NCBI RefSeq assembly: GCF_003471585.1
Contig: NZ_QRJO01000004.1
Span: 128,313 to 179,816, forward strand
Length of the DNA: 51,504 nucleotides
Reading direction: 5' to 3'
DNA from: Collinsella sp. AM18-10
GTDB taxonomy: Bacteria > Actinomycetota > Coriobacteriia > Coriobacteriales > Coriobacteriaceae
Below are positions 18,461 to 33,494 of the stretch, in pieces. How positions within the stretch are numbered: the stretch's first letter is position 1; each line of letters opens with the position of its first letter. Both the position numbers and the translations under genes were made by a program. The notes under the pieces are model-generated. The model was not told where the DNA came from. It was given only the letters and a program-made list of their open reading frames with translations, and made no database searches.

Positions 18461-18462
18461 GC

Positions 18463-18475: not shown

Positions 18476-18497
18476 GTTACATGGGTTCAACTGTGCC

Positions 18498-18560
18498 CAC
18501 GGCTCCACCAGGCCGCAAAGCGCAGGGTCGATCAGCATCCGGCCGTAACGGCGGTGCCAG
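18498..18560 (+). promoter_or_regulatory. riboswitch-like segment (cyclic-di-GMP-I / GEMM-like words)
   Basis: The order CACGGC, ACC, GG, CGCAAAGC, CAGGGTC and GCCAG matches conserved words of the GEMM (cyclic-di-GMP-I) aptamer in sequence order. However, the P2 hairpin with its GNRA loop, expected between ACC and GG, is reduced to one base. It could be a highly derived aptamer, a decayed one, or coincidence. Its place ahead of an attenuator-like structure and a polysaccharide operon makes a ligand-sensing role reasonable. Confidence 0.25.
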
Positions 18561-18676
18561 AAAAACCACGAGCTCCAGTAGCGTCGTCATGCGTATCGCA
18601 TCGAAAGGCTTTGTTTTTGTCTACGGGCAAGCTGTTCTTTCGATTTGATATTCGATGACTAATCGCAGCAGTCCTT

Positions 18677-18752
18677 CAGCTGGCTGCATGCGGTCCAGTT
18701 TTGTACCTGCTTGACTGGGCCGCATGCAGCCAGCTGGGGATGCGGTCTTTTT
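18677..18752 (+). promoter_or_regulatory. attenuator-like mutually exclusive hairpins
   Basis: A 17-bp perfect inverted repeat (CAGCTGGCTGCATGCGG at 18677-18693 with 18720-18736), extended inside by CCAG/CTGG, competes with a second hairpin CCGCAT (18720-18725) / ATGCGG (18740-18745) that is followed directly by TCTTTTT. The shared segment 18720-18725 cannot pair both ways. This is the layout of an antiterminator versus terminator switch in a leader RNA. Confidence 0.6.
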
Positions 18753-18832
18753 GCGATACACGTCCGCGTCTCTAGCAACTGCGTTTATACATACCGTTCA
18801 CGGTGGGGCAGAGCCACGTGCTTGTCTAACTG

Positions 18833-18905
18833 GGCTCAGGGTTTGAATATGGAGCGCCTTCGCGCACAAGCGCCCTGGCGAAGCCATACCCAAACCCCGT
18901 GAGCC
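18833..18905 (+). promoter_or_regulatory. large dumbbell-like leader hairpin before loaP
   Basis: GGCTCAGGGTTTG (18833-18845) pairs with CAAACCC (18891-18897) and TGAGCC (18900-18905) across a 2-base bulge. TATGG (18848-18852) then pairs with CCATA (18884-18888), and CTTCGC (18858-18863) with GCGAAG (18878-18883), leaving an apical loop and internal loops. LoaP, a NusG paralogue, is known to bind a dumbbell-shaped RNA hairpin in leaders of its target operons. This structure ends about 20 bases before the loaP start. Confidence 0.65.
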
Positions 18906-18925
18906 ACACGTAAGACAGCAAGGGG

Positions 18926-19480
18926 GTGGTGCTCGTGTGGTATGTGATCCAGGTCATTAACGGTCGCGAAGACGTAATGCGCGAGCGCATCGAGCGCGTG
19001 GTGCCGGCTGGCGCCATGCAGGAGCTCTTTTATCCCCAATTTCAAACCGAGATCAAGGTACACGGCGAATGGGTCAACACGACCAAGCCGCTCTTTCCCG
19101 GTTATCTGATCTGCGATACGGCAGATCCTCGCACCGTGCAACGGTATCTGCTGCGCATGGACGACTTTGCCCGAGTGCTTGCCCAGGACGGTCAGTTTGT
19201 GCCGCTGGCAAAAGAAGAGGCCCAACTCATAAGCAGCATTACGCATAGGGGAGACCGCGTAGTGCCCATGAGTGAGGCCCTAAAAAACGGCGACCAGGTC
19301 GTAGTAACGGCTGGTCCACTGCTGGGCCACGAAGGCCTTATCAAAACCATTAACAGACGCAAGAGCACTGCTTATCTGGAGCTCGATCTGTGCGGCCGAC
19401 GTGTAACCACCCGCGTTGGCCTCGCCGTGCTTTCGGCTGAGCAGCGCGTGATGCGAAACCTAAAAAAGGCGATCGCCTAG
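18926..19480 (+). CDS. loaP: LoaP-type transcription antitermination protein (NusG paralogue)
   Basis: A 184-residue specialised NusG paralogue. The N-terminal NGN domain (VWYVIQVINGREDVMRERI, then TTKPLFPGYLICD) should bind RNA polymerase. The C-terminal KOW domain is GDQVVVTAGPLLGHEGLIKTI followed by NRRKSTAYLELDLCG, close to the form seen in LoaP proteins at the head of polysaccharide operons. It probably suppresses premature termination across the following 15 kb of capsule genes. The start is one of several in-phase GTG codons (18926, 18929, 18935); the one at 18935 has the best spacing from AAGGGGG and would begin VWYVIQV. It precedes the dehydratase gene by 81 bases. Confidence 0.85.
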   Translation: MVLVWYVIQVINGREDVMRERIERVVPAGAMQELFYPQFQTEIKVHGEWVNTTKPLFPGYLICDTADPRTVQRYLLRMDDFARVLAQDGQFVPLAKEEAQLISSITHRGDRVVPMSEALKNGDQVVVTAGPLLGHEGLIKTINRRKSTAYLELDLCGRRVTTRVGLAVLSAEQRVMRNLKKAIA

Positions 19481-19561: not shown

Positions 19562-21442
19562 TTGAACACTGAATCTAAGAGCGCAAAGCAAAAGGGGAAG
19601 CTGAGCGCCTTTGAACCGTATGCGTTGATGGCATATGACATCGCGGCAACTTTTATCGCCGTGTTTGTTGCATCGTGGGGAACGCAGCAATGGGCGACGC
19701 TCAGCGGAGCAGCCGGCGCATGCCCGGCTATTCTTGTTCTTGCGCTTGTTAACGTTGTCGTCTTTTGGTTCTTCCATATGTATAGCAGCTTGTGGCGCTA
19801 TGCGAGCATTTCCGAGGCCGGACGTATTGTTGCTGCTGTAACGGTAGGCTCAGTAATTGGCGACGTTATCTTTAACGTGTTATTTGGCAAGGGCATGACC
19901 CTTCGTGAGGACGTTATGGCGTGGGCTGTCGTCCTCATTATTTGCGGTGGCGGCCGTTTTGCCATTCGCGCAATTTATGGTAGCCAGCTCTGGCGCTTTA
20001 AAAGCAATTCCGATGCGCATCTCCCGCGTACGCTCATCGTAGGAGCAGGGGAGACCGGCTCTCTTTCCATCAAACGTATGCTCAACGGAGACCCCGATAT
20101 GATCGGAGATCCAGTTGCCGTTGTTGACGATGATCCCAATAAGCAAAATCAGCGTATTCATGACGTTAAGGTCTGTGGTACTTGCGCCGATATCCCTACT
20201 ATTGCGCACGATTGTGAGGCTGAACAGATTGTCGTGGCAATTCCGAGTGCCACGCATGAAGAACGTCAGCGAATCTATGACCTGTGCATGAAGACGGGAC
20301 TTAGGGTCCTCACGCTTCCCAATGTCCGCGATATTCCGCAGGATGGTATAGGTAGGGTTGCCCTTCGTGAGGTCGAAATCAGCGACTTGCTTTCTCGCGA
20401 GGAGAAATCGCTTGACCTTAACCAGATGGGCTACGTTACCGGTAAGCGCGTTTTGGTCACGGGTGGCGGCGGATCTATTGGCTCAGAGCTTGTACGTCAG
20501 CTGCTTCCGGCGAAGCCTGCGCAAATCGTGTTGTTCGACATTTACGAGAACACAACCTACGAGTTGTATCACGACATCATCAAGACCGCTCATGATCAAG
20601 GCACTGATATTCAAGTTTATATCGGTTCCATTACGCATCTCCCAGCGATTACCAAGGTCTTTGAGAAGTACCGTCCTCAAGTCGTTTTCCACGCTGCAGC
20701 CCACAAGCACGTTCCTCTTATGGAACACAACGCCCGCGAGGCAATCGAGAATAACGTCTTTGGCACGCTCAATGTTGTACGTCTTGCCGACAAGTACCAG
20801 TGCAGCCACTACGTGCAGATTTCTACTGATAAGGCCGTTAATCCCACGAACGTAATGGGTGCCACCAAGCGTATGGACGAGATGATCGTTCAGTATTATG
20901 CGGCCAACAGCAAGACCATTTTTACTGCTGTTCGCTTTGGCAATGTTCTGGGTAGTCATGGATCGGTCATTCCGCTGTTTAAGCGCCAGCTTCGCGAGGG
21001 TGGCCCTATCACCATTACGCACAAGGACATCACGCGTTATTTCATGACCATCCCGGAGGCCAGCAAGCTTGTCATTACTGCCGGCGCTTTGGCGCATGGC
21101 GGCGAAATTTTTGTACTGGACATGGGTGAGCCGGTCAAGATCTACGACCTTGCCATCAACCTAATTACGCTCAGCGGTCTTAAGCCTGGGAAAGATATCC
21201 AGATCAAAGAAGTCGGCCTGCGTCCTGGCGAGAAGATGTACGAGGAGCTCCTTATGGACAACGAGCAGCTCCTGCCTACCGAGCATTCCGAGATTCGCAT
21301 CTCCACAGCCGAGGCCGACAAGATGGAAGAGATCAAAGACAAGCTTGAGAAGCTTCATGACTGCTTCGACAAGGATAACGACACGGTTAAGTCCGTTCTC
21401 GCCGAGGTTGTACCTACGTATCATCCGCAGTTTAACGATTAG
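19562..21442 (+). CDS. membrane UDP-N-acetylglucosamine 4,6-dehydratase (CapD/PglF/WbpM-like)
   Basis: Makes a 4-keto-6-deoxy sugar nucleotide, the first step to sugars such as QuiNAc, FucNAc or bacillosamine in capsule units. The 626-residue protein has four N-terminal membrane helices (residues ~20-140), a first Rossmann-like domain (TLIVGAGETGSLSIKRML) and a second, catalytic short-chain dehydrogenase domain from ~290 (VLVTGGGGSIGSELVRQLL). The catalytic segment STDKAVNPTNVMGATKR has Met where short-chain dehydrogenases normally have Tyr, as in WbpM/PglF-type enzymes. The start is a TTG; a GGGAAGAGAAG lies upstream. It overlaps nothing and is followed 6 bases later by the priming transferase. 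Confidence 0.9.
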   Translation: MNTESKSAKQKGKLSAFEPYALMAYDIAATFIAVFVASWGTQQWATLSGAAGACPAILVLALVNVVVFWFFHMYSSLWRYASISEAGRIVAAVTVGSVIGDVIFNVLFGKGMTLREDVMAWAVVLIICGGGRFAIRAIYGSQLWRFKSNSDAHLPRTLIVGAGETGSLSIKRMLNGDPDMIGDPVAVVDDDPNKQNQRIHDVKVCGTCADIPTIAHDCEAEQIVVAIPSATHEERQRIYDLCMKTGLRVLTLPNVRDIPQDGIGRVALREVEISDLLSREEKSLDLNQMGYVTGKRVLVTGGGGSIGSELVRQLLPAKPAQIVLFDIYENTTYELYHDIIKTAHDQGTDIQVYIGSITHLPAITKVFEKYRPQVVFHAAAHKHVPLMEHNAREAIENNVFGTLNVVRLADKYQCSHYVQISTDKAVNPTNVMGATKRMDEMIVQYYAANSKTIFTAVRFGNVLGSHGSVIPLFKRQLREGGPITITHKDITRYFMTIPEASKLVITAGALAHGGEIFVLDMGEPVKIYDLAINLITLSGLKPGKDIQIKEVGLRPGEKMYEELLMDNEQLLPTEHSEIRISTAEADKMEEIKDKLEKLHDCFDKDNDTVKSVLAEVVPTYHPQFND

Positions 21443-21448
21443 GCACTT

Positions 21449-22204
21449 ATGACTGAAATCAAGACTATCGAACAGGCTATGAACGCCAACCTTTCACCTT
21501 CTGATGCACCTGCAGTGTATGCCCTTACCTCTGTTCCTGATTCGGTTGCGGATGAGCTTGATCTTGATGGAAAGCTTGGATATCGCTTCGTTAAGCGTGC
21601 GTTTGACATTATCTCAAGCGGTTTAGGACTTATCGTGCTGAGTCCGGTAATTGCAGGAACAGCTCTGGCTGTAAAGCTCACGAGTCCAGGTCCTGTCATC
21701 TTTAAACAGAAGCGTGTCGGAAGAGATAAGAATCTTTTCGACATCTATAAGTTTCGAACAATGCGGATTGATACCCCAGATTTGCCTAGTCATATGATCA
21801 ATGCGAGTGACTGGTTGACTCCTGTTGGTCCTACCCTGCGCAAGCTTAGCTTGGATGAGCTGCCGCAACTTCTGAACATCTTCAAGGGCGATATGTCTGT
21901 CGTTGGACCTCGTCCTGCGTTGTGGAGCCAGTTTGACCTCGTGGCTGAGCGCGACGCTTGCGGCGCAAACAACGTACGCCCCGGGCTTACTGGTTGGGCT
22001 CAAATTAATGGACGCGATGAGTTAACCATTGATGTGAAATCCGCTCTTGATGGCGAGTATGTTCGTCGTCGTTGTGTCGCCTTTGATCTCAGGTGTTTTT
22101 TCGGCACGTTCTCCAAGCTGTCTGGCTCTGAGGTGGTCGAGGGCAATCAATCAGAGTCCACGACCTCTGCTGTATCTATCGAAAGTACTAATGCCAATGA
22201 ATAA
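21449..22204 (+). CDS. priming sugar-phosphate transferase (monotopic PGT)
   Basis: Transfers the first sugar-1-phosphate of the repeat unit to undecaprenyl phosphate. The 251-residue protein has a ~45-residue leader, one re-entrant hydrophobic segment (AFDIISSGLGLIVLSPVIAG), then the conserved core: KLTSPGPVIFKQKRVGRDK, IYKFRTM, LDELPQLLNIFKGDMSVVGP and RPAL, with RPGLTGWAQINGRDEL after that. It lacks the large N-terminal polytopic region of WbaP-type enzymes, so it belongs to the short PglC/CpsE-core class. Coupled to the dehydratase upstream, whose product could be its substrate. Confidence 0.92.
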   Translation: MTEIKTIEQAMNANLSPSDAPAVYALTSVPDSVADELDLDGKLGYRFVKRAFDIISSGLGLIVLSPVIAGTALAVKLTSPGPVIFKQKRVGRDKNLFDIYKFRTMRIDTPDLPSHMINASDWLTPVGPTLRKLSLDELPQLLNIFKGDMSVVGPRPALWSQFDLVAERDACGANNVRPGLTGWAQINGRDELTIDVKSALDGEYVRRRCVAFDLRCFFGTFSKLSGSEVVEGNQSESTTSAVSIESTNANE

Positions 22205-23048
22205 TTCCGCCATAAAATACAGCGTGCTGATGTCTGTCTACCGCAACGACAAGCCAGCTTATCTTGATGATGCCATTGAGTCCATGGCCAATCAGACGCT
22301 TCCTTTCAATGACTTGGTCCTCGTCTGCGACGGTCCACTAAATGATGAATTGGACTATAAAATCTCAATATGGCAAGACAAACTCGGGTCGAGTCTTAAT
22401 GTAGTTCGCCTCAGCGAGAACCATGGTCTTGGTTACGCCTTAAATGCGGGCTTACCGGCCTGCGCGTGCGGCATAGTCGCGCGTATGGACTCCGATGACA
22501 TCTCACGACCCGATCGCTGCGAGAGGCTAATCTCTTGCCTTATTGAAGATAAGCTGGATCTTGTTGGCGGAATGATTGAAGAGTTCGACAAAACTCCCGG
22601 CGACATGGGGTCTATCAGAAATGTTCCTCTTACACGAGAGGAGATCATTAAATGGGCCAGGAATAGGAATCCTTTTAACCATGTAACCGTTATGTTTAGA
22701 CGTGACGCGGTCGAGTCCGCTGGAGGCTATCAGCCCTTCTCTTGGATGGAGGATTATTGGCTTTGGGTTCGTATGCTCTCTCTTGGCTGCGCATGCGCGA
22801 ATATTCCTGATGTTCTTGTTGACGTTCGAACCGGTGACGGCATGTATGCCCGACGTTCCAACATTGCCTACCTCAAGAGCAATGCCGCATTCTTCAGGGA
22901 GCTTCGTAAACTCGGCCTTACTTCGCGCTTTGGGGAGTTTTTCTCTGTTCTCCAGCGTGTTCTTGTCACTTTCATGCCTGCCGATCTGGTGAAGGTCGCC
23001 TATAACAAGTTCCTGCGTTCCAAGGCAGGTGGCAACATTGATCGGTAG
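22191..23048 (+). CDS. glycosyltransferase family 2
   Basis: A 285-residue GT-A glycosyltransferase. It begins YSVLMSVYRNDKPAYLDDAIES, has a VCDGP segment, and the nucleotide/metal motif ARMDSDDISRPDRCERLI (DxDD) around residue 100, followed by HVTVMFRRDAVESAGGY and EDYWLWVRM, which place it near rhamnosyl- or galactosyltransferases of capsule loci. The donor sugar is unknown. The start ATG overlaps the end of the priming transferase gene by 14 bases; a second ATG 6 bases later is equally possible. Confidence 0.88.
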   Translation: MPMNNSAIKYSVLMSVYRNDKPAYLDDAIESMANQTLPFNDLVLVCDGPLNDELDYKISIWQDKLGSSLNVVRLSENHGLGYALNAGLPACACGIVARMDSDDISRPDRCERLISCLIEDKLDLVGGMIEEFDKTPGDMGSIRNVPLTREEIIKWARNRNPFNHVTVMFRRDAVESAGGYQPFSWMEDYWLWVRMLSLGCACANIPDVLVDVRTGDGMYARRSNIAYLKSNAAFFRELRKLGLTSRFGEFFSVLQRVLVTFMPADLVKVAYNKFLRSKAGGNIDR

Positions 23049-23976
23049 CGGCTTGCCCCTTGTGAGCGTAATCATGCCGACGTATCGCAGGACCGACACT
23101 CTGGGCCGCGCTATTGGTAGCGTCTTGAGTCAAACCTATCGGAATCTCGAGCTCATCATTGTTAATGACAACGGCGGCGAAGATTGCTTTACACCCCGCG
23201 TGCACGAGATTGTTTCGTCGTTTTCCTCTTCAGATTCAAGAGTACGCCTTCTCGAACCTTCCATTCATAAGAACGGCGCCTTTGCGCGCAACAGGGGAGT
23301 CGAATCGTCGTCTGGCTCCTACCTCGCTTTTTTAGACGACGACGACTGGTGGGAGCCTGAGAAGATTGAACGTCAGGTTGAGGCGTTTACATCGCTATCC
23401 GATGATTGGGGAGTTGTTTCATGTCGCGTTAAACGCTTCAGGGGGGATGATCTGATAAGTGTTCTCCCCAAACATCCTGATGGGCATGTTTACAAGGACA
23501 TCATGCTCATTGTCTCCGACTTTCCCACAGGCACGCTCTTGGTTCGCCGCGATCTCTTTGAGCAAGTCGGGGGGTTCGATGAGGAGCTCATTCGTCATCA
23601 GGACCTTCAGCTCCTTATCGAGCTCACTTTTCGAAAAAAGTTGTACCAACTCAATGAACCTCTTCATTGCTGTGATGTTAGCGACGGGCAGAATAGACTT
23701 GGCCCCGATGACCTCATTAAGGCAAAGAAGGCCCTCTTTACCTCAGTAGCTGACGTATATGGCAGCCTAACGCTATTCGAGAAACATGCCGTGGCGTCGG
23801 CTCAGCGTGCGGAGGTTGGTCGGATGAGGATCAAGAATGGTCAGAAACTGCAGGGGATTGTCGACATTCTTGGTTTGCTCTCAGCTCCTGAAGCTCTGTG
23901 GAAGACTGCAGAAAAGACAATGCTCAGGATGCGCGGAAATCATAACGCACGCAAGGCGGGCGATATCTCATGTTAG
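23029..23976 (+). CDS. glycosyltransferase family 2
   Basis: A 315-residue GT-A enzyme: PLVSVIMPTYRRTDTLGRAI, the IVNDNGGED segment, and LAFLDDDDWWEPEKIERQVEAF containing the DDDD metal-binding run, then GTLLVRRDLFEQVGGFDEEL and HQDLQLLIEL. It should add one sugar of the repeat unit on the inner face of the membrane. The start is a GTG overlapping the previous gene by 20 bases; an in-phase TTG at 23038 is better spaced from AAGGCAGG. Confidence 0.88.
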   Translation: MATLIGSGLPLVSVIMPTYRRTDTLGRAIGSVLSQTYRNLELIIVNDNGGEDCFTPRVHEIVSSFSSSDSRVRLLEPSIHKNGAFARNRGVESSSGSYLAFLDDDDWWEPEKIERQVEAFTSLSDDWGVVSCRVKRFRGDDLISVLPKHPDGHVYKDIMLIVSDFPTGTLLVRRDLFEQVGGFDEELIRHQDLQLLIELTFRKKLYQLNEPLHCCDVSDGQNRLGPDDLIKAKKALFTSVADVYGSLTLFEKHAVASAQRAEVGRMRIKNGQKLQGIVDILGLLSAPEALWKTAEKTMLRMRGNHNARKAGDISC

Positions 23977-25262
23977 CTGACAAGGCCATGCGTGTTTCAA
24001 GGCGCATTGAGTTAAGGCGACCCAAGAATGAGGATGTGGCCCTTGAGGCTAGAGTCATTGACTGCTTTCCTGCCATTGCTTTATTCATTTTCGTTGCCTA
24101 CCACGGTCTTCGCGACTTCATTGCTTCGACCATCGGGATGTATGGGGCTGTCGTTTATACGTTAACCGGAATCTCTTATCTCCTGCTTATTGTTTACTGG
24201 TTTCGTTGTGGTTTGAGGTTGAGCGGAAGGGTAATCCTGCCCGCCGTCGCTGTATTCGCAATTTTTTCTATATATGTGGTGCTCTGCGATGTCGACTACT
24301 TCATCTTTGATGATTATGCCCTTCCGCAGGCGATTAATCCGATGGGAGGCATGATTGCGTTCCTATTTCTTGCTTCTCAGAACGATGCCAAACGCGCTGA
24401 TGCGGCACTCAAGTTTGCTTGCATCATCATGACCTTATACCTACAGGCCTCCCTGAGCTCGGTTATGCAGGCCACGACGCTATATGGCTACGACATGGGG
24501 CTTGGCTTCGATGCTATGTTTTTCGCCTTGCTCTCTCTTCACTTCATCGTAGACGATGCAGACGGATTCAATATCCCCTCCTTTGTCCTTTGGCTTGTGT
24601 GTGCGCTTTCGAATATTGCGCTTATCCTTTCGTACGGCTCCCGTGGACCCCTTCTCGGCATTATCGCTTTTGCAGCCCTCAGGTTCCTGGTCTTTGTTTT
24701 CGGTTCAAAGACTTCCGTCATTAAGAAGTTCTTAATATCTGCCGCGATTCTCTGTGCTGCGTTGATCCTGGTATTTTCGCTCACAGATCTGGCTTTGGCG
24801 CTTAATCATCAACTTAATTCGATGGGTATAACCTCGCGCACCTTGGAAAAGTTCCTATACGCCGACGTTATGAGTGACAGTGGTCGTTCCACCATCTGGA
24901 ATGCCTTGACTCCGCGCATTTCGTTGTTCGGTAACGGGCCTTTTTCGGATCAGGCGTATCTGGGGCCCGGCAACTACTGCCACAACTTCTTTCTCGAGGT
25001 CTTTTATGACTTTGGTATTCCGTTCGGAATTGTCATTTTGTGCGTCCTCGCCTGGTTCCTCATTCTCTCATTTAGGAGCTGCAACGTGTCCCCCTGGTTC
25101 CCCATTTTCCTTACTCTTCTGGCGTTTTGCATCGGGCGCCTCGGACTCTCCGGCACTTTCTGGACGGAAACCTATTTCTGGGGGCTGCTCGCGGTTATGG
25201 GGCTTTGCACCGCCGACCTCAAAAAGAATGCAGCCGCCGCTTCGAAGGAGGCCGCTCGCTGA
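23970..25262 (+). CDS. O-antigen/capsule polymerase (Wzy-like)
   Basis: A 430-residue membrane protein with roughly ten to twelve hydrophobic segments and little sequence identity to a named family, as is typical of Wzy polymerases. Two features support the call: the SYGSRGPLLGIIAF loop, like the RxxxxG motif seen in Wzy/O-antigen ligase proteins, and a long outer loop with HNFFLEVFYDFGIPFG. It would polymerise flipped repeat units outside the membrane. It overlaps the preceding gene by 7 bases and the flippase by 1 base (TGATG). Confidence 0.82.
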   Translation: MLADKAMRVSRRIELRRPKNEDVALEARVIDCFPAIALFIFVAYHGLRDFIASTIGMYGAVVYTLTGISYLLLIVYWFRCGLRLSGRVILPAVAVFAIFSIYVVLCDVDYFIFDDYALPQAINPMGGMIAFLFLASQNDAKRADAALKFACIIMTLYLQASLSSVMQATTLYGYDMGLGFDAMFFALLSLHFIVDDADGFNIPSFVLWLVCALSNIALILSYGSRGPLLGIIAFAALRFLVFVFGSKTSVIKKFLISAAILCAALILVFSLTDLALALNHQLNSMGITSRTLEKFLYADVMSDSGRSTIWNALTPRISLFGNGPFSDQAYLGPGNYCHNFFLEVFYDFGIPFGIVILCVLAWFLILSFRSCNVSPWFPIFLTLLAFCIGRLGLSGTFWTETYFWGLLAVMGLCTADLKKNAAAASKEAAR

Positions 25263-26797
25263 TGGCATCCAGACGATACAACGCTGCCCGAAACATCGTT
25301 TGGGCAGTCATTAATAAGATTTTCGTAATCATCATGCCGTTCGCAGCGCGCACGGCCATGATTTACTACCTGGGTGTTGAGTACACCGGCCTGGGAAGCC
25401 TTTTCACTTCAGTCCTTACTGTCCTGTCGCTTGCCGAACTCGGTTTCAGTAGTGCGATGGTCTTTAGTATGTACGAGCCCATCAACAAGCGCGCCAAGCC
25501 GAAGCTTTGCGCGCTTCTTTCGTTCTACCGCCTCGTATACCGCGTTATCGGCATCGCCGTACTCATCGTCGGCGTCGCCCTTATGCCATTCCTGCCGTCT
25601 CTCATTAAAGGCAGCGCCCCCGGCGGTATCAATATCTACCTCTTATATGCCATCTACCTTTCGAACACCGTCATCGGTTACTTCCTGTATGCGTATAAGG
25701 TCTCCTTGCTTACCGCTTACCAGCGCGGCGATGTGGTGAGCAAGGTAGGCCTGGTTACGAGTGTAGGGATGTACACCTTTCAAATCGCCGCCCTCGTTCT
25801 CACCCAGAACTTCTACGTCTATGCGGTGCTGTTGCCCCTCTCAACTATCGTCAATAATATCGTCTGCAACGTTGTCTCGAACCGGCTTTACCCGGACATT
25901 GTCTGTGAAGGCGAGCTCGATCGTGAGACCGTCAGCGACATTGCAAAGCGCGTCTCAGGCGTGTTCCTTTATAAACTCAGTTCAACGACCAGGACCTCAT
26001 TCGACAGCGTCGTAATTTCTGCGTTCCTAGGCCTTTCGGTGCTAACGCAGTACCAGAACTACTTCATGATTGTCAGTTCGGTGTCAGGTATGCTCGCCGT
26101 TGTCATCAACGCAATTACGGCAAGTGTCGGCGACGGCATTGTTTCAAAATCTCGCGAAGAAAACTATGGAGACTTCAGAGTCTTCGTGTTTCTCTACATG
26201 GTAATTGCTGCCGTCTGCTCATCTTGTCTTCTTTGCCTCATTCAACCCTTCATGAAAATTTGGGTTGGTAGTGATCTGTCAATCGCGGACGGCCTCGCTG
26301 CGCTATTCGTCCTTTATTTCTATGTCCAGACAATGGGCGATATCGTATATCTCTATAGGACAGCAGCTGGGCTTTGGTGGCAGGACCGCATGCGACCGAT
26401 TATCGAATCTATCGCTAATGTCATTCTGAATCTGTTGTTCGTCCAACTCTGGGGATTTGCCGGTATCCTGCTGGCCACGATCACGACCCTCTTGCTCATC
26501 AATTTCGGCTGGGGTGCGTACATCCTTTTCAAGCACTACTTTAAGCGTGGTATAGGTGATTACCTCGCCCTTCAGGCGCGGCAGCTCATTGCCATGATCG
26601 CCGCCTGCGCCGTCTCATATTTCATTTGCGGCTTCATCGGTGTCGCCGGCCTCCCTGGGCTCTGCCTGAAGCTCGCTTGCTCACTCATGTTGTCATTGGC
26701 GGTCCTATGGGCCTTCAGCTTTAAGTCCGACCTGTTCAGCCAGAGCTTGGACTTCATGAAGGGGACCCTGCGACTCCTATCCAGTAAAACAGTCTAA
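25262..26797 (+). CDS. polysaccharide flippase (Wzx-like, MOP superfamily)
   Basis: A 511-residue protein with about 14 membrane segments, starting MASRRYNAARNIVWAVINKI and containing LGVEYTGLGSLFTSVLTVLS, a pattern common to Wzx-type flippases of Gram-positive capsule loci, and LWGFAGILLATITTLLLIN near the end. It would move undecaprenyl-linked repeat units across the membrane for Wzy. The ATG follows GAAGGAGG with good spacing; a longer upstream reading frame exists but lies inside the polymerase gene. Confidence 0.9.
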   Translation: MASRRYNAARNIVWAVINKIFVIIMPFAARTAMIYYLGVEYTGLGSLFTSVLTVLSLAELGFSSAMVFSMYEPINKRAKPKLCALLSFYRLVYRVIGIAVLIVGVALMPFLPSLIKGSAPGGINIYLLYAIYLSNTVIGYFLYAYKVSLLTAYQRGDVVSKVGLVTSVGMYTFQIAALVLTQNFYVYAVLLPLSTIVNNIVCNVVSNRLYPDIVCEGELDRETVSDIAKRVSGVFLYKLSSTTRTSFDSVVISAFLGLSVLTQYQNYFMIVSSVSGMLAVVINAITASVGDGIVSKSREENYGDFRVFVFLYMVIAAVCSSCLLCLIQPFMKIWVGSDLSIADGLAALFVLYFYVQTMGDIVYLYRTAAGLWWQDRMRPIIESIANVILNLLFVQLWGFAGILLATITTLLLINFGWGAYILFKHYFKRGIGDYLALQARQLIAMIAACAVSYFICGFIGVAGLPGLCLKLACSLMLSLAVLWAFSFKSDLFSQSLDFMKGTLRLLSSKTV

Positions 26798-26808
26798 AGG
26801 AGGAAATA

Positions 26809-27924
26809 ATGGAGTTTATCAACCTTAAGAAGCAGTATGAGCTGCTCCGACCGACCCTTTCCGTAAAGGTCGAAGAGATCATGGCCGGTGCTCATTTCAT
26901 CGGAGGTTCAGAAGTGGGTGAGCTCGAGGAGAGGCTAGCAGACTACGTTGGCCGATCTCACTGCCTCGGGTGTGGCAATGGCACGGAGGCGCTCCAGCTC
27001 GCTTATATGGCTTACGGAATCGGCGCTGGCGACGCAGTCTTCTGCCCCGCGATGACTTTTATTGCATCCGTGGAGCCCGCCGCGATGCTTGGCGCCACCC
27101 CGGTCTTCTGCGATATCGAGCCTGACACCTTCAACCTTTCGCCAAGCTCTCTCGTAGAACAGATAGAGAGCGTCGAGCGCGAGGGCAAGCTTAGGCCTCG
27201 CGCGGTCGTCGCGGTTGACTTCCTTGGCAATCCTGCCCGCTTCGACGAGATTTCTAAAATTTGCGCTGACCACGGTCTTCTGCTGATCGAGGACGCCGCA
27301 CAAGGTACTGGTGCCTCTTACAAGGGTTCCCGATGCGGCTCGTTTGGCGACATCTCCTGCACGAGTTTCTTCCCCTCGAAGCCGCTCGGCTGTTACGGTG
27401 ACGGCGGTGCTGTCTTTACCGATGACAATGAGGTTGCCGGCCTAATCTCCTCTTTGAAGGTGCACGGCAAAGGGTCGAGCAAGTACGACAACGTCCGCGT
27501 TGGCATGAATTCGCGTCTCGACACTATTCAGGCGGCGGTCCTTCTTGCGAAGATGGACTTGCTCGACACCGAGATGGATAAACGTCAGGAAGTCGCAGCT
27601 CGTTATTGGAAGGCATTTGAGGGCAAGATTCAAACCCCGAAGATCACTGAGGATTCCACGAGTTCCTTCGCTCAGTTCGTGCTTATCGCAGAGTCCGAGG
27701 AGCAACGAGATCATGTTGTCGCTTCCATGAAGAAAGTGGGCGTGCCATCCCTCGTCTACTACCCGAAGTCCCTTCACCAGATGAAGGCCTTCGGCGGTCA
27801 CGTCGTCCAATCGTTCCCAAACGCCGAACACTACGCGCGGTGCAACTTTGGCATCCCATTTTCACCCTACATTACCGAGGAGGAGCAGGACGAGGTCGTC
27901 TCTGCTGTCCTCGCAGCTCTCTAG
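26809..27924 (+). CDS. DegT/DnrJ/EryC1/StrS-family sugar aminotransferase
   Basis: PLP-dependent aminotransferase of nucleotide sugars. The 371-residue protein starts EFINLKKQYELLRPTLSVKV and shows GCGNGTEALQLAYMA, the LIEDAAQGTGASYKG segment (with the Asp that contacts PLP), and FFPSKPLGCYGDGGAVFTDD, whose Lys is the expected PLP anchor. Closest in character to WbpE/PglE/DesV-type enzymes. With the next gene it may form a WbpB-WbpE-like oxidation/transamination pair, or it may act on the 4-keto sugar of the dehydratase. A strong AAAGGAGGAAATA site precedes the ATG. Confidence 0.92.
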   Translation: MEFINLKKQYELLRPTLSVKVEEIMAGAHFIGGSEVGELEERLADYVGRSHCLGCGNGTEALQLAYMAYGIGAGDAVFCPAMTFIASVEPAAMLGATPVFCDIEPDTFNLSPSSLVEQIESVEREGKLRPRAVVAVDFLGNPARFDEISKICADHGLLLIEDAAQGTGASYKGSRCGSFGDISCTSFFPSKPLGCYGDGGAVFTDDNEVAGLISSLKVHGKGSSKYDNVRVGMNSRLDTIQAAVLLAKMDLLDTEMDKRQEVAARYWKAFEGKIQTPKITEDSTSSFAQFVLIAESEEQRDHVVASMKKVGVPSLVYYPKSLHQMKAFGGHVVQSFPNAEHYARCNFGIPFSPYITEEEQDEVVSAVLAAL

Positions 27925-27950
27925 ACCAGCACGTATGGGAAGGAAGGAAC

Positions 27951-29033
27951 ATGAAATACGCTCTTATTGGCTGTGGAAGAATCGCAGTCAACCATATCAA
28001 GGCTGTCGCCAACAACAACTTGGATCTCATTGCCGTCTGTGACATAGACCCTTCCAAGTTCGATACCATGTTCGAGAAGGCCGGCTTCGGTGACTTCCCC
28101 GGAACTGAGCGTTGCAGTGACTACTCCGCGATGCTCGACGCTCACCCTGAGATCGAGCTCGTTGGCATCGCGACCGAGAGCGGCGAGCATGCGAAGATCG
28201 CCCTCGACTGCATCGAGCGCGGCATCAACGTTATCATCGAGAAACCGATGGCAATGTCCATGCAGGACGCCGACCTGATCGTCGAGCGATCCCACGAGAA
28301 GGGCGTTAAAGTCTCCGTCTGTCATCAGAACCGCTTTAATCTCGCTATCCAAAAGCTGAGGGAGGCACTAGACGGGGGTCGTTTTGGGACTATCTCCCAT
28401 GGTTCGATCAATGTTCGCTGGAACCGTGGCAAATCCTATTACGATCAGGCACCCTGGCGAGGAACATGGGAGCAGGATGGCGGCACGCTCATGAACCAGT
28501 GCATCCATGGCATCGACCTGCTCAGATGGATGCTCGGAAACGAGGTCGAAGAAGTCTACGGTGCCACGCGACAGCGTTTTCATGACTACCTTGAGGCCGA
28601 AGATGTGGGCGTTGCCGTCCTGAAGTTCAAGAACGGCGCTGTTGGCACCATAGAAGGCACCGCAAACGTTTACCCAAAGAATCTCGAGGAGACGCTCTAC
28701 GTTTTCGGAGAGACAGGCACCGTCAAGGTCGGCGGCACCTCGACGAACAACATTGACGTATGGGACTTCGCTGAGGAGACCGGTGCCGATGCAGAGACGA
28801 AGAGACTTCATGAGGTCACGAGCAATGTTTACGGCAATGGACACACCGCGCTCTATGCTGACATGATTGACGCCATCAAGAATGACCGCGCACCCTATGT
28901 GGATGCCATTGCCGGTAGGAATGCACTTGAAATCGTGCTTGCGATTTACAAGAGTCAGAAGACCGACGAGCCTGTCAAGCTCCCTCTACAAAATTTTGCC
29001 TCCATTGACATGGCCGGCGAGTTCGGCAAATAG
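27951..29033 (+). CDS. Gfo/Idh/MocA-family sugar dehydrogenase
   Basis: NAD-dependent oxidoreductase of 360 residues. The N-terminal Rossmann fold is MKYALIGCGRIAVNHIKAV with LIAVCDIDPSKF; the family catalytic Lys is in VIIEKPMAMS; the C-terminal domain carries GGTLMNQCIHGIDLLRWMLG with the conserved His. Together with the adjacent aminotransferase this is reminiscent of WbpB/WlbA, which oxidise C3 of UDP-N-acetylglucosaminuronate before amination. A WbpA-type enzyme is not seen here, so the substrate is uncertain. The ATG follows GGAAGGAAC. Confidence 0.9.
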   Translation: MKYALIGCGRIAVNHIKAVANNNLDLIAVCDIDPSKFDTMFEKAGFGDFPGTERCSDYSAMLDAHPEIELVGIATESGEHAKIALDCIERGINVIIEKPMAMSMQDADLIVERSHEKGVKVSVCHQNRFNLAIQKLREALDGGRFGTISHGSINVRWNRGKSYYDQAPWRGTWEQDGGTLMNQCIHGIDLLRWMLGNEVEEVYGATRQRFHDYLEAEDVGVAVLKFKNGAVGTIEGTANVYPKNLEETLYVFGETGTVKVGGTSTNNIDVWDFAEETGADAETKRLHEVTSNVYGNGHTALYADMIDAIKNDRAPYVDAIAGRNALEIVLAIYKSQKTDEPVKLPLQNFASIDMAGEFGK

Positions 29034-29041
29034 GAGCTAAT

Positions 29042-30010
29042 TTGCCTATTCTGAAACATATCCAAACGTTGCGACACGTTGGAGTTGGACCATCTGCTAA
29101 ATGGGCACGGGACAGGGCCGTTGCACCTCTAGTCCCCGCTATCCACAAGATGCGCTGGTCGAAACACTCATCTGAGGCTGGGTATTCCGGGCTCTCCGCC
29201 GAGCACCACGAGGTTCCTCTCGTAATCTCGCTAACAACGTTTCCTGCGAGGACGAGGACTGTGCATCTCGTTGTCGAGTCATTGCTCATGCAGACCTGTA
29301 AGCCTGACGTGCTTGTACTTTGGCTCGCGCGCGAACAGTACCCGGGCGGCGAGGCCGATTTGCCAGAGAGCTTAACCGGATTGAAGAGGTACGGCCTCGA
29401 TATACGCTGGTGCAGTGACATGCGCTCATATAAGAAGCTCATACCGACACTGCGCGAGTTTCCAGGGGCCGTAGTGATTACGGCGGACGATGACATCTAC
29501 TACGGACCGCATTGGGCCGAAAAGCTTTACCGTGCCTATATGGAGAATCCTAGGGCGGTGCATTGTCACCGGGTGACGAAGTTCTACAAGGACGAGGGTC
29601 AGTGGCGCACTTCTCCCGGCGGATACGATGTGTACCCGTTTCCGACCTACCTCCATAAGCTGACGGGGAGCAGTGGCGCGATCTATCCGCCCGCACCACT
29701 GCCCCCCGAGATGGTGGACGAATCGCTGTTCATGAAGATCGCCCCAACAAACGACGACATTTGGTTTTGGCTGATGGCGGCCCGTGCGGGCCTGCCCTGC
29801 AACGTGGTGCGGGGCAGCGAGCCCGCGCTCTTCTATGTGGAGGGCTCGCAGGAGCAGGCGCTTACCAAGGTTAACGATCAGGGGGAAAGGCTGTTCTGGA
29901 AGCAGTTTGGCGCGGTACTGGAGAAGTTTCCCGATGCAGCGAGGTTGCTCGACAATGAATGGAGCAGGGTCCGAGCTATTAACGGCGCGGGTGCCCTTAA
30001 GGAGGAATAA
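29042..30010 (+). CDS. predicted glycosyltransferase
   Basis: A 322-residue protein that looks like a GT-A glycosyltransferase from capsule clusters: EVPLVISLTTFPARTRTVHL, LLMQTCKPDVLVLWLAREQ, and VVITADDDIYYGPHWAEKLY with a DDD metal-binding run, then a TNDDIWFWLMAARAG segment typical of the catalytic base region. The exact family is not certain and the acceptor is unknown. The start is a TTG 4 bases after TAGGAGC; it follows the dehydrogenase gene by 8 bases and is only 3 bases ahead of the next gene. Confidence 0.75.
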   Translation: MPILKHIQTLRHVGVGPSAKWARDRAVAPLVPAIHKMRWSKHSSEAGYSGLSAEHHEVPLVISLTTFPARTRTVHLVVESLLMQTCKPDVLVLWLAREQYPGGEADLPESLTGLKRYGLDIRWCSDMRSYKKLIPTLREFPGAVVITADDDIYYGPHWAEKLYRAYMENPRAVHCHRVTKFYKDEGQWRTSPGGYDVYPFPTYLHKLTGSSGAIYPPAPLPPEMVDESLFMKIAPTNDDIWFWLMAARAGLPCNVVRGSEPALFYVEGSQEQALTKVNDQGERLFWKQFGAVLEKFPDAARLLDNEWSRVRAINGAGALKEE

Positions 30011-30013
30011 ACC

Positions 30014-31003
30014 GTGACAATCAGCTCTAAGCTTAAGCGTCTGGCAGCAAGTGTCGACACGTACGGGTTCGCCTATATTATCGAGCGCGCAAGAGCACCG
30101 CACAACCAGATCGGTAGTCTTCCCTGCATGAGGAAGAGGCAGGAGCTTTATGCCGGCATGTCGGTGGCGGAGCGCGCTGCCGAGCTCAAGAGACTCTTCA
30201 TGTGCGGCACGGGAAGGAGGCTCGACCTCTCCAATCCTAAAACCTTCGACGAGAAGATGCAGTGGCTCAAGCTCTACGGTGAATCAGACCTAAGGGCACG
30301 CCTCATCGACAAGGTGGTCGCCCGCGAATGGGTCGCCGAAAAGGTTGGCGAGAAGTACGTCGTGCCAATGCTCGGCGTTTGGGATTCCTTCGATGAGATT
30401 GACTTCGATACGCTGCCTGACCGGTTCGCTCTCAAGTGCAATCATGGCGCAGGTTACAACATTATCGTCCATGACAAGTCGAACCTTGATCTTGCAGATG
30501 CGAAGGTCAAGGTCGATGGATGGATGAGTGAGAACTATGCCTACGGCCAGATGATGGAGCTGCAGTACGAACATATTGCGCCCAAGGTCTTTGCCGAAGA
30601 ATACATGGAGAACGCCGGCGGCGACATCTATGACTATAAGATTTATTGCTACGACGGTGAGCCGCTCTACACCCAGTTCCTCTGTGACAGGGCAACGGGT
30701 CTTCGCATGGCATATTTCGACAACGAATGGAATAAGCAGACGTTCCGAAATTCTCAGCATGCTCTCATTACTGAGAATATTGAGCGTCCTGACAATTTTG
30801 ACGAGATGCTCGACGTGGCCCGTGCACTCTCGGAAGACTGGCCATTCGTGCGCGTCGACCTGTACCGTCTGGACGACGGGACAGTCAAATTCGGCGAGAT
30901 GACTTTCATCCCTGCCGGCGGCATGATCGACTGGGTCCCAGCGAGCACCGACCTGTTGCTCGGCGAGGGCATTGAGCTGCCGCTTGGCAAAGCCGGGAGG
31001 TAG
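30014..31003 (+). CDS. TupA-like ATP-grasp protein
   Basis: A 329-residue protein of the TupA (teichuronopeptide biosynthesis) ATP-grasp type found in many capsule loci. Landmarks are NPKTFDEKMQWLKLYGE, RFALKCNHGAGYNIIVHDKS, DYKIYCYDGEPLYTQFL and FVRVDLYRLDDGTVKFGEM. ATP-grasp enzymes form amide or similar bonds, so it may decorate the polysaccharide with an amino acid or small acid, though some are annotated as glycosyltransferases. The start is GTG after GGAGGAATAAACC. Confidence 0.82.
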   Translation: MTISSKLKRLAASVDTYGFAYIIERARAPHNQIGSLPCMRKRQELYAGMSVAERAAELKRLFMCGTGRRLDLSNPKTFDEKMQWLKLYGESDLRARLIDKVVAREWVAEKVGEKYVVPMLGVWDSFDEIDFDTLPDRFALKCNHGAGYNIIVHDKSNLDLADAKVKVDGWMSENYAYGQMMELQYEHIAPKVFAEEYMENAGGDIYDYKIYCYDGEPLYTQFLCDRATGLRMAYFDNEWNKQTFRNSQHALITENIERPDNFDEMLDVARALSEDWPFVRVDLYRLDDGTVKFGEMTFIPAGGMIDWVPASTDLLLGEGIELPLGKAGR

Positions 31004-31006
31004 TCC

Positions 31007-32215
31007 ATGCGCATACTGATCATCGCCCCCTACTTCGCCCCGAACCCAGAGGTTGCTTCTGTTCGCATGGTGAGCCTGTCGTCGCAGCTCGTCTCTGACG
31101 GCCATTCCGTTACTGTGCTATGCCTCTCTCGAAAGGGTCTGCTGCGCGAGAACACACCCGAGGAGCTGACTGCTAGCGTGCCCGACGGAGTGCGGACCAT
31201 ACGTTTCGATTTGGACTATTCGACCGCACCGCTGGTAGCCGATTACCTGAACGGCAAGCGGTTCGCTCGAGCCCTTTCGAGCTTGGTGGACCCTGCGAAC
31301 TACGACGTCGTGCTCAATACCTGCGGGCCGTATTACCCGCTGGAGGCAGCATCGATCATTGGGCGCTGGGGAATCCCCTACGTTCTGGACTTCCGCGACC
31401 TGGGGGCTATCAACTATCGGCCTGCGATTGTATCAGGTTCCGGGGCCGGCGCGGCCAAAGCTGCGCTCAAGCGGCTCTATGGCAAGCTCATAAAGCGCCG
31501 CGAGCGCAGGGCGGTGAGCCTTGCCGACCGCGTCATTTGCATCAGCGGCATCGACCTCGAGGCGATGGAGCGGGCCTACGGCCTGGGCTCGAAGGCGAGC
31601 GTCGCCACCAACGGCTTCGACGAAGCCAGGCTCGTCTCCATTCGTCCAAGTGGCGATAAGCCCTTTGACCTCACCGCCGCCGTCTTTGGCAAGTTCATGT
31701 ACTACGACAAAGACAAGGCGGCTGCCATTTTGGAGGCGATTTGTGAGATTCGGGCGCGTGGCGTTGACGCTGGACTCGCCCACATCGGAAAGAAGTACGA
31801 CTGGATTGATGGGGTCATGAAGTCCAAGGGCATCGATTCGGCCTGCTACTTGAACCTTGGGCTGATGGAATACCAAGCAGGTATGGCGCGTCTGGGAGAC
31901 GCCGATTTCTTTGTGGTGGAGGACACCTCGCCTGATGACGTGGGTACCAAGATCTACGACTACATCTTCTGGAACAAGCCGGTTGTCGCGGTGGTGCCGC
32001 CCGAGGGGCCGCTCGCCAAGCTGCTCTCGGGCTTTGCCAACGGTTTTGTGTGTACGACGAGCGACGAGGTTCGCGCTGCGGTGGAGAGGATTGCGGCGGA
32101 GCGCTTGGACTGCCTTGACCCGAACCTTGACCGCGACCGGTTCTCGCGTAGGCACCAGAACAAGCTCATAGAGGGCATCTTGGAAGACGCAGTGAAGGAG
32201 GCACGCCAGCGATGA
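31007..32215 (+). CDS. glycosyltransferase family 4
   Basis: A 402-residue GT-B type enzyme. The N-terminal domain begins MRILIIAPYFAPNPEVASVR with HSVTVLCLSRKG, and the central region has DRVICISGIDLEAMERAYGL and VATNGFDEAR, typical of the GT4 hinge. The C-terminal donor domain ends with DVGTKIYDYIFWNKPVVAVVPP, where a canonical EX7E motif is hard to place. It overlaps the acetyltransferase downstream by 4 bases. GC content is high compared with the genes near 22-25 kb. Confidence 0.82.
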   Translation: MRILIIAPYFAPNPEVASVRMVSLSSQLVSDGHSVTVLCLSRKGLLRENTPEELTASVPDGVRTIRFDLDYSTAPLVADYLNGKRFARALSSLVDPANYDVVLNTCGPYYPLEAASIIGRWGIPYVLDFRDLGAINYRPAIVSGSGAGAAKAALKRLYGKLIKRRERRAVSLADRVICISGIDLEAMERAYGLGSKASVATNGFDEARLVSIRPSGDKPFDLTAAVFGKFMYYDKDKAAAILEAICEIRARGVDAGLAHIGKKYDWIDGVMKSKGIDSACYLNLGLMEYQAGMARLGDADFFVVEDTSPDDVGTKIYDYIFWNKPVVAVVPPEGPLAKLLSGFANGFVCTTSDEVRAAVERIAAERLDCLDPNLDRDRFSRRHQNKLIEGILEDAVKEARQR

Positions 32216-32781
32216 TACGCACGAAGGAAGACCTGCGCCGCTACATGGAAGCTGACAAGAGGATGCTCGAACGGGGGGGGGTTCGTCCCGGTCCTGTGGA
32301 TTACGTCTGGAAGTTCGAGCGGCTGCTGCGCCGGTCGGAGTACTGGCACAACCGGCCCAAGACGCCCCTCACCGTGTTTTGGGGCAAGTTTCTCTCGCTA
32401 CGGCTGGCGCGCATGGAAGCTCGGCTCGGGTTCTCGATCCCGCTCAACGTCTTCGACAGCGGGCTCAGCATCGCGCATGTTGGCCCTATCGTCGTCAGCC
32501 CCTATGCGCGCATCGGCAGGAACTGCAGAATCCACGTGGGCGTGAACATAGGTACGCGGGCTGGCGTGCCCGATGAGGCTCCGACCATTGGCGACGACGT
32601 CTACATTGGGCCGGGTGCGAAGCTGTTCGGGCGCATTGAGGTGTCCGACCGCATCGCCGTGGGGGCGAACGCCGTGGTGAACAAGAGTTTCGGCGAGCCG
32701 GGTATCTCTATCGGTGGAGTGCCAGCCAAGAAAATCAGCGACAAGGGAAACCCCGACTACAAGGGAGGCAAGCCTGAATGA
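32212..32781 (+). CDS. serine O-acetyltransferase-like sugar acetyltransferase (left-handed beta helix)
   Basis: A 189-residue acyltransferase resembling CysE/WcaB. An N-terminal helical part (res. 1-75) precedes hexapeptide repeats SIAHVGPIVVSPYARIGRN, CRIHVGVNIGTRAG, APTIGDDVYIGPGAKLFGRI, ending ISIGGVPAKKISD. It probably O-acetylates the polysaccharide or its precursor using acetyl-CoA. A run of nine G (32273-32281) codes for part of ERGGVRPG; it is currently in phase, but a one-base slip would stop the protein early, so expression may be phase variable. It overlaps both flanking genes by 4 bases. Confidence 0.85.
   Translation: MIRTKEDLRRYMEADKRMLERGGVRPGPVDYVWKFERLLRRSEYWHNRPKTPLTVFWGKFLSLRLARMEARLGFSIPLNVFDSGLSIAHVGPIVVSPYARIGRNCRIHVGVNIGTRAGVPDEAPTIGDDVYIGPGAKLFGRIEVSDRIAVGANAVVNKSFGEPGISIGGVPAKKISDKGNPDYKGGKPE
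32273..32281 (+). repeat. G9 homopolymer tract in first acetyltransferase
   Basis: Nine consecutive G near codon 22 of the first acetyltransferase gene, inside the reading frame (CGG GGG GGG GTT). Tracts of this length are typical sites of slipped-strand mispairing. Confidence 0.75.
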
Positions 32782-33494
32782 TAAAGGAGCTAGCCAAGAG
32801 GATCCTCTATCCGCATGCTCACTCGTCCGAGGCGTTCGCGGACTATCTTAGGCGCAGGGGCGTCGAGGTCGGCGAGGGGTGCTACTTCTTCGACGCGCAG
32901 ACCATCAACGTCGACCTGCAGCGGCCGCACATGCTTCGGTTTGGGAAGTACGTGAAGGTAACCGGGTATGTGCACATTCTCTGCCATGACTACAGTCGCT
33001 CAGTAGTGTTGCAATCTGGGGGGGGGCATTTCGGAGAGGCTGGAGAAACAGTCATTGGGGACAATGTCTTCATTGGCGCTCACGCCATCGTGCTGATGGG
33101 ATCCAATATTGGCGCAAACTCAATTATTGGCGCAGGTGCGGTTGTCTCCGGCTCATGGCCCGAAGGCTCTGTAATCGCTGGCAACCCAGCCAAGCTCGTT
33201 TGTTCTTTATCGGAATTTGCCTCGAAACGCAAGGAACGTGAACTCAAGAGCGCAGTTTCATATGCGAACGCGTTTAAAAAGAGTAATGGTTGCTGGCCAA
33301 ACATTAATCAAATGTCCAATGCTTTTGTATGGCTCTATTTGCCACATTCTGAAGAGACTCTTCATAAATATGCAGGGCTTTTCAAGCTGAATGGAGTCGA
33401 TCCAGATGTACTCAAAAAGGCATTTCTTGCTTCGAAGCCAAAGTTTGATAGCTATCAAGATTTTTTGGATTATTGTGCCAATAATTCAGTTTGA
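32778..33494 (+). CDS. hexapeptide-repeat acetyltransferase
   Basis: A 238-residue WcaF/maltose-acetyltransferase-like protein. Hexapeptide repeats run from VEVGEGCYFFDAQTINVDLQ to AGETVIGDNVFIGAHAIVLM and GANSIIGAGAVVSGSWPEGS, with VIAGNPAKLVCSL at the end of the helix; the last ~75 residues are an unusual extension. The first ~75 codons are GC-rich like the upstream genes, while everything after about 33005 is AT-rich, so the gene looks chimeric. A G9 tract (33018-33026) lies just after that composition break, coding SGGGH, and could make it phase variable. Confidence 0.83.
   Translation: MIKELAKRILYPHAHSSEAFADYLRRRGVEVGEGCYFFDAQTINVDLQRPHMLRFGKYVKVTGYVHILCHDYSRSVVLQSGGGHFGEAGETVIGDNVFIGAHAIVLMGSNIGANSIIGAGAVVSGSWPEGSVIAGNPAKLVCSLSEFASKRKERELKSAVSYANAFKKSNGCWPNINQMSNAFVWLYLPHSEETLHKYAGLFKLNGVDPDVLKKAFLASKPKFDSYQDFLDYCANNSV
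33018..33026 (+). repeat. G9 homopolymer tract in second acetyltransferase
   Basis: Nine consecutive G at about codon 81 of the second acetyltransferase gene (TCT GGG GGG GGG CAT), in phase here. It repeats the situation in the gene immediately upstream. Confidence 0.75.

Follow-up and report, generated by a model that had tools for sequence, protein, structure and literature searches.

The leader of loaP in Collinsella sp. AM18-10 carries an RNA module that we consider likely to be a two-part, cis-acting LoaP loading site for loaP's own operon, composed of a hairpin followed by a pause (about 18789-18888; positions are those of the window, i.e. the whole 51,504-nucleotide stretch of DNA that was analysed). 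The module is conserved in related leaders, its helices covary, the spacing of its parts is near-fixed and it is linked to loaP. The relatives share the same order of parts, which are ACAUA, a closing helix (S1), a twice-bulged hairpin (S2), the motif A consensus GRNYGMAUA, a second hairpin (H1 in the window) and the 12-base motif GGCGNAGCCNTR. This arrangement is described by R1, a covariance model built from 28 Coriobacteriia loaP leaders. The features of the window are collected in Table 1.

Table 1. Features of the loaP leader and of the operon that follows it, in window coordinates
Feature	Position	Strand	Remarks
ACAUA, 5' end of the leader element	18789..18793	+	CATAY-type block, conserved
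Closing helix S1, 5' strand CCGU	18794..18797	+	Alignment A5, covariation
Bulged hairpin S2, GGG-G-CA-G-AGC[CACGU]GCU-UG-UCU	18805..18827	+	8/8 pairs possible in the window (A5)
Long hairpin of the initial annotation	18833..18905	+	Alternative, Collinsella-type fold; not general in relatives
Closing helix S1, 3' strand CAGG	18837..18840	+	A5 columns 56-59; overlaps the GGGTTTG stem of the initial annotation
Motif A GTTTGAATA, variant of GRNYGMATA	18841..18849	+	GTTTG form of the window deviates from the strict pattern
Hairpin H1, GCGC-ACAA-GCGC	18862..18873	+	Ends 3 nt upstream of the 12-mer
12-base motif GGCGAAGCCATA	18877..18888	+	GNA mini-hairpin, then T11 A12; ops-like pause register
loaP	18926..19480	+	NF033641 antiterm_LoaP match; NusG and KOW Pfam domains
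Polysaccharide biosynthesis genes	19562..33494	+ (strand of loaP)	ORF list, Pfam

The loaP product passes the NF033641 profile narrowly (128.5 bits for a curated cut-off of 125). The true start of the gene is probably the GTG at 18935 rather than 18926, since homologues begin with MWYVIQV and a purine run, AAGGGGG, is found at 18920-18926. Twenty of the 53 related loci found, Collinsella L001 to L020, have a loaP 88-96% identical to that of the window. According to the available text of PMC12691694, the LoaP of Bacillus velezensis needs E40 and R41 for dfn binding; the window protein has I43 and K44 at the corresponding positions, in an alignment from which the B. velezensis LoaP itself is absent and whose numbering was transferred from another Bacilli LoaP. 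Among 20 Coriobacteriia-type LoaP proteins, K44 is invariant and I43 nearly so. The downstream genes up to 30010 have Polysacc_synt_2, Bac_transf, Glycos_transf_2, DegT aminotransferase and Gfo/Idh/MocA matches in Pfam. A Wzy_C match in the operon scores 31.1 bits, slightly below the cut-off of 31.7, the Pfam search gave no match for 25127-26797, and the acetyltransferase-like matches at 32212-33494 are all under the curated cut-offs. The number of intrinsic terminators in 17900-35500 (15) does not exceed that of shuffled sequences (17.7). Upstream of the leader, an inverted repeat with 23-base arms (18677-18736; 96% complementary, 14 nt apart) is followed by TTTTT at 18748-18752, and its conservation in Collinsella is moderate.

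R1 matches the window, whose leader is among its 28 training rows, at 18789-18926 with 72.1 bits. RNAalifold analyses of 28 leaders paired YCUU with RAGR to form S1, which encloses S2. In the MAFFT alignment of the 28 leaders, 94.3% of the cells are paired and 41 cells show double changes, compared with 14.8 in shuffled alignments; sliding the helix partners lowers every measure. The 88 R1 matches contain 188 double-change cells (45.5 in the controls), in an alignment fitted to the model. For 29 rows that had no part in training, from which the training rows L284 and L319 were left out, three S1 pairs exceeded every one of 1000 shuffles and four S2 pairs exceeded at least 99%, the alignment again being a fitted one; in all these covariation measures, pairs that hardly vary are uninformative. 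At E<=0.005, R1 recovers 33 of 35 loci that were not used to build it, and 17 of the 18 devoid of the 12-mer are among those recovered (the 35 loci are the 37 further leaders described below minus L284 and L319, which were used in R1). Of 96 sources, 87 have a match at E<=0.01, which gives the 88 matches, and nine have none; these 96 do not include near-duplicates or the four weak loci L299, L306, L309 and L317. Rfam gave no match at the gathering threshold for the window leader, and up to E 5 its sole match was a ribosomal protein leader, with 12.8 of the 37.8 bits of the cut-off.

Sequence blocks are also conserved. The CATAY-type block (ACATAYCTT) was found at 45 sites, only sites with a downstream 12-mer being retained, and 42 of these are located 82-114 nt upstream of the 12-mer. 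Strict motif A is present at 41 of 75 sites, near-identical ones not being collapsed, compared with 0.3 in shuffles, and it is absent from the downstream 65 nt. Of 56 sites, 41 have a hairpin that ends 0-8 nt upstream of the 12-mer with a score of at least 6 (13.9 in shuffles, maximum 22 in 200, z 7.1). At 25 of these 41 sites, 2-3 nt separate the base of this H1-type hairpin from the motif, and the sequence of the hairpin is not conserved. The window's copy of the module is divergent: two of the four S1 pairs can form, GTTTGAATA takes the place of motif A, the 12-mer ends in A12, and S2, with CA/UG middle pairs and G bulges, lacks a UNCG loop. When the window sequence is folded alone, S2 is not favoured (z 0.0 and 0.25). 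The function predicted for the window's copy rests on its relatives. In L021 and other leaders, a palindrome, GCAGGAAACTGC, is found upstream of ACATAYCTT; its 11-mers occur in 17 of 67 leaders, and GCGGGAAACCGC variants exist.

For the 12-base motif, we analysed 67 leaders of up to 260 nt each, after dropping the near-duplicates L104, L143, L153 and L154. The commonest 9-mer is GGCGAAGCC (38), and GGCGNAGC[CTA] is present in 52 of the leaders, against control values of 3.6 (Markov shuffles), 2 (reverse strand), 3 (inside loaP) and 3/66 (far upstream). The full 12-mer is found in 45/67 and neither form in 18/67. At 56 nonredundant sites from 50 loci, two positions stand out beyond the searched bases, T11 (49/56) and R12 (51/56, with 33 G and 18 A); sites more than 85% alike were collapsed in the 56-site sets and in the pair-extension set. 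The GNA mini-hairpin is retained through compensatory changes, as GCC-GNA-GGC with T11G12 kept is found in 4 of 22 non-canonical leaders (L103, L105, L123 and L158; expected 0.3, maximum 2). The C3:G7 pair is present in 53/53 paired sites, and the flips occur at pair 2:8. A further 37 leaders, which had played no part in finding the motif and are mostly extra loaP copies of sampled genomes, remained after 20 of 57 loci were dropped as redundant with the first set or with each other, L285 having been seen earlier; 19 of them harbour the paired 12-mer with T11R12, with no occurrence on the reverse strand and 0.49 in shuffles (maximum 3 in 300). The 12-mer is present in 59 of the 88 R1 matches and missing in 29. 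In those 59 Coriobacteriia matches it is located at a median distance of 76 nt from the S2 start (interquartile range 73-79.5), and in the window at 72 nt.

The mini-hairpin alone is weak (-3.0 as RNA, -1.7 as DNA). A longer GNA stem that includes pair 0:10 was rejected, with 48 paired sites for 52.5 expected; as this pair does not covary, a longer stem does not explain T11. Pair -1:11 shows a slight Watson-Crick excess (p 0.016). These counts come from a looser site rule, with 105 sites of which 73 have T11R12, chance sites included, and the search demanded pairs 1:9 and 2:8, whose counts are thus uninformative. Leaders with at least two copies of the GGCGNAGC-type motif were observed (L130, L146, L327 and L297).

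Analyses of the genetic environments showed that the module is linked to loaP. LoaP was found at E<=1e-25 in 113 of 396 Coriobacteriia-class genomes, and an R1 scan of 149 genomes of the class yielded 55 matches in 36 genomes. Based on coordinates and tblastn, 52 of these directly precede loaP, two precede loaP remnants, and one marginal match (E 0.0078) is elsewhere; the scan scored 21 candidates per genome, and rare other targets may be missed. The placement of the interval in the leader of loaP's own operon, as proposed in the initial annotation, is borne out by the 52 of 55 matches. Among 87 alignment rows of R1 matches that were checked, 85 are on the strand of loaP and between -20 and 400 nt of its start; the second match of L157 is 521 nt off, and that of L305 overlaps by 34 nt. 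The window's leader matches one place each in 22 of 43 Collinsella-genus genomes, in one of them only partly, and the plasmid search gave no match. A search for other targets with GAATA-N22-52-GGCGNAGCCNTG was abandoned as too loose, with 40 hits in 32 of 246 genomes and 18 in the backward control. Leader RNA is retained upstream of the loaP remnants of L365 and L368 (residues about 3-68 and 1-48; G063 and G102). Some Coriobacteriia genomes have up to seven LoaP matches, with several adjacent pairs (G231, G299, G043, G102 and G364). In Eggerthella lenta, inversions shift capsule clusters relative to loaP, as described in the available part of PMC13174815.

LoaP was also identified at E<=1e-35 in 29 of 398 Bacilli genomes. 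As reported in the accessible sections of PMC12691694, the LoaP of B. velezensis binds a UNCG-type hairpin; dfn requires this hairpin and benefits from a downstream pause, and deletion of the 10 nt directly 5' of the hairpin abolishes activity, while mln has no similar sequence there. The dfn and mln system resembles the one described here by a LoaP-family gene and a bulged hairpin of the type found at loaP loci of Bacilli; the downstream pause is reported for dfn (PMC12691694, same sections). We searched for the bulged-hairpin layout using a criterion taken from Bacilli loci and not from the published dfn sequence. It was found in 15 of 33 Bacilli loci (null 2.3, maximum 5), for example as TAA-T-CG-T-TGT[TTCG]GCA-CG-TTA, and in 48 of 108 Coriobacteriia leaders (null 5.2, maximum 9; reverse 3), where near-identical loci were not collapsed and a few hits look like chance. 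S2 of the window and the Collinsella-type L002 and L104 have a stem, a 1-nt bulge, 2 bp, a 1-nt bulge, 3 bp and a loop. In contrast with dfn and mln, the loop of the window hairpin is CACGU and not UNCG, and its bulges and middle pairs differ, the comparison being made with the letters of the Bacilli loci. No pair-closed UNCG loop was seen by eye in the window leader. A TTCG loop is present in two of the listed Coriobacteriia leaders, L157 (GAA-T-CG-T-CGC[TTCG]GCG-CG-TTC) and L317. The Coriobacteriia leader differs further by its covarying closing helix, motif A and GGCGNAGCCNTR, and by its location before loaP itself.

Ten of the 15 Bacilli loci have the hairpin on the strand that does not encode loaP, consistent with the targeting of a different operon there. 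In L170, L172, L174, L176, L177, L178 and L194 of Bacilli, a UNCG hairpin is located on the opposite strand 219-229 nt before loaP, which suggests a divergent target. The flanks of the Bacilli hairpins pair with their own partners above those of other loci (p 0.007, 12 loci), and in several loci, e.g. L184 and L189, the best pairing is elsewhere. RNAalifold analyses of 14 Bacilli leaders (L193 left out) found the bulged hairpin and not S1. S1 is likely to exist in Bacilli. When 52 loci from Bacilli, Clostridia and phages were searched, R1 had no match at E<=0.1 (best E 0.19); the whole-leader model is therefore specific to Coriobacteriia, and the link with Bacilli rests on hairpin layout and spacing. 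Regarding the latter, GG-N8-T[GA] is found at +74..+92 from the hairpin in 12 of the 15 Bacilli leaders (null 2.8, maximum 10 in 1000), in a range set post hoc, with four close relatives among the 12 and the L193 pattern added by hand. The spaced copies of Bacilli include GGCGAAGCTATG, GGCGATAGCCTG, GGCGGGAGCCTG and GGGGAAGCTCTG among others. Their loop varies and the mini-hairpin is sometimes lost, while the GG-to-TG distance is constant at 12 bases. In many leaders of both phyla, GG-N8-T[GA] lies about 76-80 nt downstream of the hairpin. We propose that a strand of a covarying closing helix resides in the 10 nt preceding the dfn hairpin, which would explain both the loss of activity upon deletion and the lack of likeness in mln.

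The initial annotation had drawn 18833-18905 as a dumbbell hairpin, a structure that it took to be the known target of LoaP. Most of the segments that it named are indeed present and complementary, namely GGCTCA (18833-18838) with TGAGCC (18900-18905), or P0, GGGTTTG (18839-18845) with CAAACCC (18891-18897), or P1, and TATGG (18848-18852) with CCATA (18884-18888). The 73 bases fold at -39.1 kcal/mol, compared with -21.0 for shuffled sequences (z -6.5), and better than all 200 dinucleotide shuffles. Conversely, the CTTCGC/GCGAAG pairing does not appear in the minimum-energy fold, which has CGCC/GGCG and GCGC/GCGC instead, and it is broken in three Collinsella loci (L003, L009 and L020), which have GCGTAG. 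That LoaP binds the long hairpin itself is very improbable. In favour of this idea are the high stability of the fold and the near-invariant sequence in 32 Collinsella-type leaders. However, the stability of a fold in one sequence carries no information on LoaP, and the invariance is not particular to the hairpin: 18788-18925 as a whole is almost invariant in the alignment of these leaders, the window among them, where some rows are possibly one genome twice. This leaves no covariation test of the stems within the genus. The leaders of relatives, read and folded, show that the inner pairings are lost outside Collinsella. P1 has counterparts in some relatives, e.g. L021, L095, L096 and L097, yet it was rejected as a general helix (permutation p 0.11). 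Furthermore, the target of LoaP in the published work is a small UNCG-type hairpin, and the word 'dumbbell' does not occur in the text of PMC12691694. The dumbbell was thus rejected as the LoaP site, as it is not conserved in relatives; as drawn, it is a Collinsella-type variant fold that pairs GGCGAAGCC (18877-18885) and 18839-18840 differently. Within 18833-18905, the relatives share the pause-like 12-mer and its 3-bp GNA mini-hairpin, while S2, which has the layout of the UNCG-type class, is located upstream of this interval. A 73-nt fold that retains the conserved mini-hairpin is about 10 kcal/mol worse than the minimum-energy fold, and the long hairpin takes up 18820-18827 and 18839-18840, which the conserved fold also uses. 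The long hairpin might alternatively belong to a translational or attenuation switch, in which the S2 3' strand is paired with the region ahead of the loaP start, so that LoaP binding and the long hairpin are mutually exclusive. Consistent with this, the minimum-energy fold of the whole leader pairs GCUUGUCU (18820-18827, the S2 3' strand) with AGACAGCAAG (18913-18922), next to the likely ribosome site. Nevertheless, the near-invariance in Collinsella deprives this pairing of a covariation test and P1 is not general in other relatives, and we regard such a switch as unlikely.

Other readings take the conserved blocks as DNA. They might be promoter or activator sites rather than transcribed RNA, since ACATAYCTT holds a TANNNT-like -10 element (TAYCTT), usually 82-114 nt before the 12-mer. 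However, covariation links YCUU to RAGR some 50 nt downstream, which is unexpected for a -10 element, no -35 element is visible by eye at the right spacing, and a consensus scan found no promoter there. We thus hold this reading to be quite improbable. It is somewhat easier to envisage, albeit doubtful, that the 12-mer is more than a pause or an RNA motif, and that LoaP binds it as a non-template DNA hairpin in the manner of RfaH with ops. The 12-base register with T11 is that of ops12, GGCGGTAGCGTG, the C:G closing pair and the GNA loop are kept while the next pair flips, the loop size changes in Bacilli (GGCGATAGCCTG and GGCGGGAGCCTG) with the GG-to-TG distance kept, and the lack of covariation at pair 0:10 implies that T11 is not due to a longer stem. 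On the other hand, some Bacilli copies (GGGGAAGCTCTG) retain GG and TG and lose the hairpin, the RNA can form an identical hairpin, and pair -1:11 has the Watson-Crick excess described above. Moreover, the dfn LoaP bound single-stranded DNA upstream of its hairpin non-specifically, according to the available text of PMC12691694, although this is a different element.

For the two-part loading site, we infer the following course of LoaP binding, pausing, antitermination and feedback. The nascent RNA would fold the twice-bulged hairpin within the closing helix, and LoaP would bind this hairpin. About 75 nt on, the polymerase would meet the pause-like GGCGAAGCCATA, with H1 close to the opening of the RNA exit channel, and the pause would give the hairpin-bound LoaP time to dock on the polymerase. 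The polymerase loaded with LoaP would then read the roughly 14.6-kb polysaccharide operon processively and resist termination. As loaP is the first gene of the operon, LoaP would raise the transcription of its own operon in cis. Thus, of the autoregulated antitermination put forward in the initial annotation, the cis element of loaP's own operon is retained, based on linkage, and the dumbbell as the LoaP site is not; the feedback would follow from gene order, and autoregulated antitermination is plausible. The mini-hairpin would be an addition to the pause motif.

In E. coli, capsule and O-antigen operons have JUMPstart-ops leaders, in which a structured leader and a pause element precede the polysaccharide genes. 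The loaP leaders are similar to those in layout, and the regulator differs. The 12-mer shares with the RfaH-dependent ops of E. coli a length of 12 bases, the GG start, T11, a small hairpin closed at C3 (available text of PMC5995543) and a location in a polysaccharide-operon leader. According to the same text, positions 11-12 of ops, GGCGGTAGCGTG, are the pause-inducing TG, with T11 in the polymerase active site, and ops-like sequences pause diverse polymerases, as reported in the accessible part of PMC7593976; we therefore read the 12-mer, by analogy, as a putative pause. The ops-like GG-N8-TG register is present in many relatives, and the window, which reads GGCGAAGCCATA and not the ops sequence, has GG and T11 but A12. 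The 12-mer has a GNA triloop with C3:G7, whereas ops has a G4-A7 loop closed by C3:G8. In addition, RfaH of E. coli acts in trans on several operons, while the pausing and binding proposed here are predictions from sequence.

A hairpin and an ops-register motif at a near-fixed distance in two phyla suggest that the LoaP and RfaH modes are less different. It is conceivable, if speculative, that the RNA-guided mode of LoaP and the DNA-guided mode of RfaH are halves of a single recruitment scheme. We found no report of this leader element in the LoaP literature covered, from which subscription papers are mostly absent. The leader provides a cis element for annotating and testing loaP-linked capsule operons of gut Coriobacteriia.

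Lastly, LoaP-like genes were observed in the phage-like viral contigs L054 to L062. A GGTTGATTCGTCC-type stretch and GGCGNAGC are located about 510-660 nt after the start of the gene. GGCGNAGC is present in all nine contigs and the GGTTGATTCGTCC-type stretch in the seven that were read, six of which have an apparent intrinsic terminator with a T run around it. LoaP control of phage genes is possible.
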